NCBI GenBank assembly: GCA_037139415.1
Contig: JBAXGN010000005.1
Span: 1-64,000 of the forward strand
Direction of reading: 5' to 3'
DNA from: Verrucomicrobiota bacterium
GTDB lineage: Bacteria > Verrucomicrobiota > Verrucomicrobiia > Limisphaerales > Fontisphaeraceae
DNA: 64,000 nucleotides
In this document: positions 30,974 through 33,516 of the stretch, in pieces
Layout of the letters: the number at the start of each line of letters is the position of its first letter
How positions within the stretch are numbered: position 1 is the first letter of the stretch
Position numbers and translations under genes: made by a program
The notes under the pieces: generated by a model
Told to the model about the DNA's origin: nothing
Database searches by the model: none
The model's input: the letters and a program-made list of their open reading frames with translations, nothing else

Positions 30974-32200
30974 ATGCTCCCAAACTGCTACGGTTCCTGT
31001 GTGAGCTTTGTTGCAGAGTTTGAAGCCCTGCCGATGACAACCCTGTCGCGGCTGGCACTGTCCACCATGCCCGAAACGGCGCGGGAGATTCTGTCGCGTC
31101 CCATCCGGTCACTGGCTGATTTTGCGCGGCTGATTTCCCCGGCGGCCTCCAACGAGTTGGAGACGATGGCCCAAGAATCACAACGTCTTACCCGCCAACG
31201 CTTTGGAAAAGTTATCCGGATGTTCGCACCGATTTATCTCTCGAACGAGTGCATCAATAACTGCCAGTACTGCGGGTTCTCCCGGGATAACCCCATCGTG
31301 CGCGTGACTTTGAATGTGGAGGATGTTAAACGCGAGGCATCGGCCTTGAGCGCCCAGGGATTTCGCAATATCCTATTGGTGGCCGGGGAACATCCCAAGT
31401 TCGTGTCTGCGGACTACTTGGCAGATTGTGTTCGCGAACTGCACGCCGCCACCCCCAGCCTCTCGCTGGAGGTGGGGCCAATGCCAACCGAAGATTACCG
31501 TAAAGTCGTCCAAGCCGGAGCGGATGGTCTGGTGATTTATCAGGAAACATACAACCGCAGTGTGTACGCGGAAATGCACACCACGGGTCCGAAACGCGAC
31601 TTTAACTGGCGGCTGGAAACTCCCGAGCGCGCTTACGCCGCCGGTTTTCGGCGAATCGGAATTGGTGCGCTTTATGGACTGGCCGACTGGCGGGCTGAAG
31701 CCATTTGTGTCGCCGCTCACGCCGCCTACCTAATGCGCCATTGCTGGAAGACATTTTTCACCATCTCCCTGCCCCGCCTGCGCCCCTGCGCCGGGTCCTT
31801 CCAACCGCGCTCGCAGATGACGGATCGGGAAATGGTCCAACTGGTATGCGCTTTCCGCCTGTTCCTGCCCGATGTTGGTTTGGTGCTCTCGACCCGGGAA
31901 TCGGCGGCGTTACGCGACGGTTTGATCCCCTTGGGCATCACTCTCATTAGCGCGGGTAGCCACACAGAGCCAGGCGGCTACACGGGCGCTGGACAGGACA
32001 AACTGCACCTGACGGAACGGGGACGGTTGAAAGAACTGACTTTGGGGGCCAGCGAATGGGCAGCGGAAGGAACCAATCCAAAAGCCACCGTGCAGTTTGA
32101 AATTGCGGATGCTCGCTCGGCTGAGGAAGTCGCTGCCCGCCTGCGACGACTGGGCTACGAACCGGTTTGGAAAGATTGGGACACTGCCCTAACGGCATAA
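30974..32200 (+). CDS. thiH: 2-iminoacetate synthase (ThiH)
   Basis: This radical SAM enzyme cleaves tyrosine to dehydroglycine for assembly of the thiamine thiazole. The cluster motif is CINNCQYCGF, preceded by MFAPIYLSNE. Family segments EVGPMPTEDY, YQETYNRSVY, GIGALYGLADWR and SLPRLRPCAG are all present. The C-terminal SAGSHTEPGGY is also typical. The ATG at 30974 gives 408 residues. A GTG at 31001 (VSFVAEFEALP) better matches the usual ThiH N-terminus and cannot be excluded. The stop codon is immediately followed by the ATG of the next gene. No TPP riboswitch was recognised upstream. Confidence 0.9.
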   Translation: MLPNCYGSCVSFVAEFEALPMTTLSRLALSTMPETAREILSRPIRSLADFARLISPAASNELETMAQESQRLTRQRFGKVIRMFAPIYLSNECINNCQYCGFSRDNPIVRVTLNVEDVKREASALSAQGFRNILLVAGEHPKFVSADYLADCVRELHAATPSLSLEVGPMPTEDYRKVVQAGADGLVIYQETYNRSVYAEMHTTGPKRDFNWRLETPERAYAAGFRRIGIGALYGLADWRAEAICVAAHAAYLMRHCWKTFFTISLPRLRPCAGSFQPRSQMTDREMVQLVCAFRLFLPDVGLVLSTRESAALRDGLIPLGITLISAGSHTEPGGYTGAGQDKLHLTERGRLKELTLGASEWAAEGTNPKATVQFEIADARSAEEVAARLRRLGYEPVWKDWDTALTA

Positions 32201-33316
32201 ATGACCATGCATGGCACCAGCACACACTGTTTTGCCATGGCGCTGGCGCTGGCCGGTTGGTGGTGCTGTCAAGCTGCGGTAATGGCGGAAACCAACGCCC
32301 TGTTACGCGCGGAAACACTCTGCCTGATTTGCGCCAAGCCGCTTCCGCCCGGTACGAATTACCACCACCCGCGTGGTTTCATCTGCGGTCCCTGCTACCT
32401 AGCCGGACCGCGCTGCAATTACTGCGGCATCCCGGCCAAAGACAATGCGGTGCGCACCACGGACGGGCGCATTTTTTGCCAGTGGGACGCGCCAGAACTG
32501 GTCCTGACCACCGAGCGGGCACAGCAAGTGCTGGACGAAACTCGGAATGAATTGGACCAGCGTTTGGGATCACTGATAAATCTTCGTTATACCAATATTC
32601 ATCTGTCGCTATTTGACGTGGATTACCGCCGGCGCAACGACGGTTCGCCCAAACCCGATGAAATGCATCAATTAGGGTTTTCCCACACCCGGGACACCGG
32701 GGATGGCCTGGTGCATAACATGCTGCTATTTAGTGGGCAGTCCCGCAATGCGACCGCCGGAACCTGCGCCCATGAACTCACCCACTTGTGGATGCACGAG
32801 AACGTGCCGGATACGCGGCAGATCGAACCGGACACCATCGAGGCGATTTGTGAGGTGGTCGCTTATCGTTTGATGGTACAACGGGGGGATACCAACCAGG
32901 CCGCCCACATCCGCACCAACCGCTACACCAACGGACGGATCATCACCCTCATCGAAGCCGAAACCCGGCATGGTTTGCGACCCATTCTGGATTGGGCAAG
33001 AACCGGCGACGAAGCTACGCTGCCGGAGTCTTGGACGGATGGCACCCCACGAGCAACGCCGCCAACCCCAGTACCCGTGGTGATCTATGGCACACCGGAC
33101 CCACCGACCTTCAACCGTCTGACCTTGCAAGGCATTCTCGGCACCTCGCAACGCCGGATTGCCATGATCAATAACCATTCATTTGAAAAGGATTCTGAAT
33201 GGGTTTTGCAGATTGACGGACGAGATGTCCGAGTCCGCTGCCTGAACATCGAACCCAAAACCGTGACCTTGCAGATAAACGAGGGCGGAAAACCCGTCAC
33301 TTTGGAATTACCATGA
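32201..33316 (+). CDS. Secreted DA1-like LIM-domain zinc metallopeptidase
   Basis: The 371-residue product starts directly after the thiH stop and has a signal-peptide-like N-terminus ending AAVMA. A LIM-like double zinc module follows: Cys41/44, Cys62/65, Cys72/75 and Cys93/Asp96 (final CQWD). The peptidase part has HELTH (191-195) and the downstream helix TIEAICEVVAY with a candidate third ligand Glu214. The same order (LIM, then HExxH, then EExICQ) defines plant DA1 ubiquitin-activated peptidases. The last ~55 residues (VLQIDGRDVRVRCL) resemble a GspB-like beta domain. It overlaps thiS by four bases (ATGA). Substrate and any thiamine link are unknown. Confidence 0.8.
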   Translation: MTMHGTSTHCFAMALALAGWWCCQAAVMAETNALLRAETLCLICAKPLPPGTNYHHPRGFICGPCYLAGPRCNYCGIPAKDNAVRTTDGRIFCQWDAPELVLTTERAQQVLDETRNELDQRLGSLINLRYTNIHLSLFDVDYRRRNDGSPKPDEMHQLGFSHTRDTGDGLVHNMLLFSGQSRNATAGTCAHELTHLWMHENVPDTRQIEPDTIEAICEVVAYRLMVQRGDTNQAAHIRTNRYTNGRIITLIEAETRHGLRPILDWARTGDEATLPESWTDGTPRATPPTPVPVVIYGTPDPPTFNRLTLQGILGTSQRRIAMINNHSFEKDSEWVLQIDGRDVRVRCLNIEPKTVTLQINEGGKPVTLELP

Positions 33317-33516
33317 GCCAAATCATTGCCAACGGCCAGCCGGTGCCGGCCAAACTCCCCTGTACCATCGAAGCATTTTTAATCGCCCAAGGTCTCCTGC
33401 CACGCAGCGTGGTGGTAGAGCATAACGGCGAGGCCGTGGCCCCATCGGAATTTCCACAACGCCAAATCCAATCGGGCGACCGGCTGGAAATTGTGAAGAT
33501 TGTGGCTGGCGGATAA
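33313..33516 (+). CDS. thiS: Sulfur carrier protein ThiS
   Basis: The 67-residue ubiquitin-like protein ends in VKIVAGG, the C-terminal Gly-Gly that is thiocarboxylated to donate sulfur to the thiazole. MSQIIANGQPV at the N-terminus and the GDRLEIV strand are typical. Its ATG overlaps the stop of the DA1-like peptidase gene, so the three plus-strand genes form one translationally coupled unit. thiG and thiF are not in the window. Confidence 0.9.
   Translation: MSQIIANGQPVPAKLPCTIEAFLIAQGLLPRSVVVEHNGEAVAPSEFPQRQIQSGDRLEIVKIVAGG

Follow-up and report, generated by a model that had tools for sequence, protein, structure and literature searches.

The known DA1 peptidases are plant enzymes that ubiquitin activates. 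Their bacterial relatives are, to our knowledge, almost unstudied. In the plant DA1/DAR proteins (PF12315; Arabidopsis DA1, PMC5322733), a LIM-like module sits just before a clan MA peptidase of the HExxH...E type, and mutation of cysteine in this module abolishes both ubiquitylation and peptidase activity (PMC5322733). DA1-like proteins have been noted earlier in bacteria, namely in Roseiflexus (cited in PMC5322733). Metallopeptidase genes neighboring those of ubiquitin-fold carriers are also familiar, JAB peptidases near ThiS/MoaD-like genes being already known (PMC1779556). A limited literature search found no report of a thiH-DA1-thiS gene order or of a PilP-like tail on such a peptidase.

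The DNA analysed here, referred to as the window, is a stretch of 64,000 nucleotides from a Limisphaerales genome (Verrucomicrobiota). It contains a three-gene unit on the + strand, composed of thiH, a 371-aa frame and thiS, and flanked by fabI-like and dus genes that both lie on the opposite strand. The features of the unit are as follows.

31001 to 32200, + strand: thiH (2-iminoacetate synthase), first gene of the unit, TIGR02351.
32201 to 33316, + strand: gene for a DA1-like LIM/HExxH zinc peptidase, predicted to be exported, 371 aa.
32201 to 32305, + strand: signal-peptide-like N-terminus, about residues 1-35, with a hydrophobic stretch and an AXA-like site.
32321 to 32488, + strand: LIM-like zinc module, C41-C44-C62-C65 / C72-C75-C93-D96, from ligand conservation.
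32693 to 33013, + strand: DA1-like core with HELTH 191-195, E214/C217/E218, YTNG 242-245 and W265, from invariant columns, the PF12315 match (residues 166-226) and hhalign.
33101 to 33313, + strand: small C-terminal beta domain, about residues 301-371, PilP/GspC-like.
33313 to 33516, + strand: thiS, sulfur carrier with the terminal sequence VKIVAGG, TIGR01683.

The two thiamine genes are well supported by their NCBIfam models, with 452 bits for thiH (cut-off 380) and 58 bits for thiS (cut-off 37). The longest thiH frame opens at TTG 30914; orthologs start with VSFVAEFN, which corresponds to GTG 31001 and suggests that the latter is the true start. The peptidase frame runs from ATG 32201 to a stop codon ending at 33316. 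Its tight junctions, described in the first-pass annotation, are borne out by the coordinates: the TAA of thiH ends one base before it (32200/32201), and thiS starts inside the region of its stop codon through an ATGA overlap (33313/33316). Values of dN/dS between 0.11 and 0.26 in six close ortholog pairs show clear purifying selection on a real gene. Because the ThiG and ThiF-like genes are found on other contigs, the thiH-thiS unit is a small, split-off thiamine unit. An Rfam scan of the whole window gave no match, including none to a TPP riboswitch, and thus no riboswitch control was found; a promoter and terminator scan returned values near or under those of shuffled sequence.

The middle protein had first been read as carrying LIM-type zinc ligands, an HELTH motif and a TIEAICE helix, in the order seen in plant DA1. 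All three elements are present and strongly conserved. C41, C44, C62, C65, C72, C75 and C93 are invariant in 60 of 60 aligned homologs, as are H191, E192, H195, E214 and E218, and likewise C217, the D and R of a DGR motif, Y242 and W265. The eighth ligand, at position 96, is variable (D in 53, E in 5 and C in 2 of the 60). The clan MA signature, an HExxH followed by a Glu-containing helix, is found in every homolog. The LIM-like module lies directly N-terminal of the peptidase, its eight ligand positions being conserved and aligned with those of multi-LIM DA1-like proteins. Its pattern, CCCC/CCCD with six residues between C65 and C72, departs from canonical LIM spacing, and the canonical LIM profile (PF00412) reaches 14.8 bits against a cut-off of 22.9, through its second half only.

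Considered alone, the window protein gives mixed Pfam scores that all fall under cut-off: 19.6 bits for M78, 19.3 for DA1-like (PF12315, cut-off 25) and 14.8 for LIM. This near tie, together with a viral fold search that returned SprT and IrrE-like proteins, would suit a minimal metallopeptidase of M78/IrrE, SprT or BSP type that acquired LIM-like cysteines by convergence. The wider family speaks against such an origin. Of 60 homologs, 42 have PF12315 as their best Pfam family (best E 1.3e-9) and 15 have M78; three thi-linked orthologs exceed the PF12315 cut-off (G318 with 27.7 bits, G097 with 27.1 and G247 with 25.2), and 33 genomes of the order hold a match above it. Furthermore, hhalign of the family profile against multi-LIM DA1-like proteins (set A3) yields an E-value of 2.3e-38 over LIM module and peptidase, with the LIM-like module, DGR, HExxH and YxxG region all co-aligning. 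The DA1-like identity proposed initially is therefore supported at the level of the family, and the outcome that would have left zinc-ribbon or unrelated metallopeptidase matches only did not occur. The convergent reading is disfavoured, and we regard it as highly improbable.

Plant DA1 and the Limisphaerales peptidase share their motif order and have PF12315 as best Pfam family, the plant motif HEMMHX15EE being represented here by H191, E192, H195, E214 and E218. Unlike plant DA1, the Limisphaerales peptidase is predicted to be exported, bears an added PilP-like C-terminal domain, has no canonical LIM above the Pfam cut-off and no ubiquitin system in view, and lacks ubiquitin-interacting motifs (UIMs), a search for which gave no match for the window protein (E<=1) or for the 60 homologs (E<=0.01). 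A likeness is also seen with multi-LIM DA1-like proteins from other Verrucomicrobiota classes and from Sumerlaeota (L184, L189, L194, L203, L180), which have a signal-like start, LIM-type repeats, a DGR..C motif and the HExxH...E core. They differ in bearing several LIM-type repeats, in having no C-terminal beta domain and in not standing beside thiH or thiS. The source genome itself encodes a protein that resembles them, a third DA1-like copy in which several LIM-type repeats occur together with HELAH (G000:C116, L004:1024-2259). Its second copy (G000:C1:112781-113470; L003, L080) is a 525-aa protein with a long C-terminal extension, located away from the thi genes and adjoining a polysaccharide-deacetylase-like gene.

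A confident AlphaFold2 model of the peptidase (pLDDT 89) was matched in parts by thermolysin-like, M1, SprT and IrrE-type zincins; none of the solved structures in the fold search matches the whole model. A phmmer search of the window protein against the PDB gave no match, and a profile search of the PDB recovered RBM22 zinc-finger and LIM matches that cover the zinc module only. No DA1 peptidase appeared among the PDB matches by sequence or by fold.

The C-terminal beta domain, which the first-pass annotation did not mention, has no Pfam family above cut-off. Its likeness to the periplasmic domains of PilP, GspC and GspB is that of a small seven-strand beta domain. In Foldseek, PilP ranks first with a probability of 0.96 but an E-value above 0.1, and T2SSB/T2SSC (GspB, GspC) are the top Pfam matches, weak and below significance. 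In the present family, it is a tail on an enzyme. It also recurs in Limisphaerales in two kinds of signal-bearing protein (names read from sequence), namely secreted thioredoxin-like proteins, which end with it, and NERD membrane proteins (L212:860-2041(-), L213:1254-2003(+), L214:1251-2468(-)). It may represent an undescribed envelope domain. At the other end of the peptidase, the structure model places a helix at residues 7-35, and 58 of 60 homologs have, by a heuristic call, a hydrophobic stretch together with an AXA-like site. The signal-like start and the PilP/GspC-like tail together argue for export, in agreement with the initial view that the signal peptide points outside the cytoplasm.

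Predicted export bears directly on whether the peptidase has business with its neighbor. The gene adjoins that of a ubiquitin-fold protein, plant DA1 is ubiquitin-activated (PMC5322733), and other bacteria have JAB peptidases next to ThiS/MoaD-like genes (PMC1779556), all of which would fit a peptidase acting in the cytoplasm on ThiS or on a ThiS-modified protein through a DA1-like tie to a ubiquitin-fold partner. The JAB operons are an imperfect precedent: they encode a peptidase of different fold and motif, whereas the Limisphaerales peptidase is an exported-type HExxH protein whose other neighbor is ThiH, not an E1-like gene. The signal-like N-terminus and exported-protein C-terminal domain, the lack of any UIM match in the window protein or its 60 homologs, and a second clade of the family that is not near thiS make cytoplasmic action on ThiS very unlikely. 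Trimming of ThiS by the peptidase was considered and dropped: the neighboring ThiS already ends in AGG at 29 of 29 loci and has no C-terminal extension, so that no trimming is needed. A true working pair, in which ThiS or a ThiS-thiocarboxylate conjugate controls the peptidase or is cut by it before or during export, is less probable still and hardly to be expected. The functional pairing suggested by the first-pass annotation thus fares poorly, given predicted export, absent UIMs, a ThiS that is already mature at its AGG end, unrelated genes in the same interval and linkage lost in several relatives.

The homologs were recovered by an alignment-based search, a single-sequence search of the genome contigs having given no match, and the genomic context of about 80 near full-length copies was examined. 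Among 320 Limisphaerales genomes, 116 contain homologs, a count that includes proteins sharing the C-terminal domain alone. The order thiH-DA1like-thiS is found in 26 Limisphaerales genomes, which represent 8 families and 9 genera; the idea that it might be unique to the source genome was dropped on this ground, and the arrangement is conserved within one order. Of 29 loci, 16 show an overlap of 4 nt between peptidase and thiS, and in 26 the two genes are no more than 17 nt apart. In a tree of 78 copies, thi-linked copies are confined to one clade of 41 (support 100/100), where thiH or thiS adjoins the peptidase in 35 rows; the second clade, of 37, has no such row. According to named records, the thi-linked clade belongs to Verrucomicrobiota, Limisphaerales, and a phylum sample of 388 genomes contains, outside the order, distant DA1-like proteins only, without thi linkage. 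Some contigs of this Verrucomicrobial family bear the MAG names of Klebsiella pneumoniae or Akkermansia muciniphila (L160, L147, L159), which looks like mislabelling.

That the gene has stayed at the same site through 8 families could also reflect a functional link with thiamine. The peptidase might be made together with the thiamine genes at thiamine shortage and serve nutrient supply from outside by releasing or maturing an envelope scavenging protein, which would account for its predicted export and for the tight coupling to thiS kept across many genera. Against this stand the absence of a TPP riboswitch or other Rfam match within the window, the filling of the same interval by unrelated genes in other families, and several relatives in which thiH or thiS has moved off and the peptidase stays. 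Moreover, most relatives with thiS have no peptidase; the remaining two genomes from the family of the source genome both have thiS and gave no peptidase match. A role in thiamine supply is therefore doubtful, if the least improbable of the alternatives.

Within this biosynthetic operon, the thiH-thiS interval of Limisphaerales is a cargo slot. It is empty, with the two genes directly adjacent, in 22 genomes that span 13 families, and in 7 genomes it holds a metallophosphoesterase. Other occupants are pilin-like genes, a GNAT acetyltransferase, a DUF2071-like gene and toxin-antitoxin pairs, and some DA1 loci have also gained a gene for an SPFH protein, a methyltransferase or a pilin-like protein (all these names were read from sequence, not from profiles). 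Varied single genes occupy the slot at L115, L120, L133, L222, L223, L246, L245, L247, L250, L227, L243 and L256. Because the interval admits unrelated genes, adjacency to thiS alone is no sign of a ubiquitin-like partnership. The ThiH tree intermixes slot states, as expected from one old insertion followed by repeated loss, and transfer could also have contributed. Identical ThiH and identical passengers at L230 (G204:C74) and L250 (G089:C232), in genomes assigned to different families, suggest a contaminating contig in one MAG.

The reading we consider likely is that of an anciently inserted and retained passenger gene, encoding an exported, LIM-gated zinc peptidase that does not act on ThiS. 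The gene would have entered the thiH-thiS interval once, early in Limisphaerales, and been retained there as a passenger under translational coupling, so that the peptidase would be produced together with ThiH and ThiS but have no role toward ThiS. Its product would be an exported DA1-like enzyme with a gluzincin-type HExxH...ExxxE core, in which the LIM-like two-zinc module probably positions the substrate or gates the active site, by analogy with plant DA1, and the PilP/GspC-like domain probably docks the peptidase to an envelope complex. Most likely, it cleaves an envelope or extracellular protein and works outside the compartment of vitamin B1 synthesis.

In this bacterial peptidase, the LIM-like module would have a structural or gating function comparable to that in plant DA1, but without ubiquitin. 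The Limisphaerales family combines such a module with a peptidase that presumably works outside the cell interior and has no UIMs, and for this reason it may provide a simple system for asking what the LIM-like module does. The variety of unrelated genes taken in by the thiH-thiS interval is, in turn, a warning against inferring function from adjacency alone.
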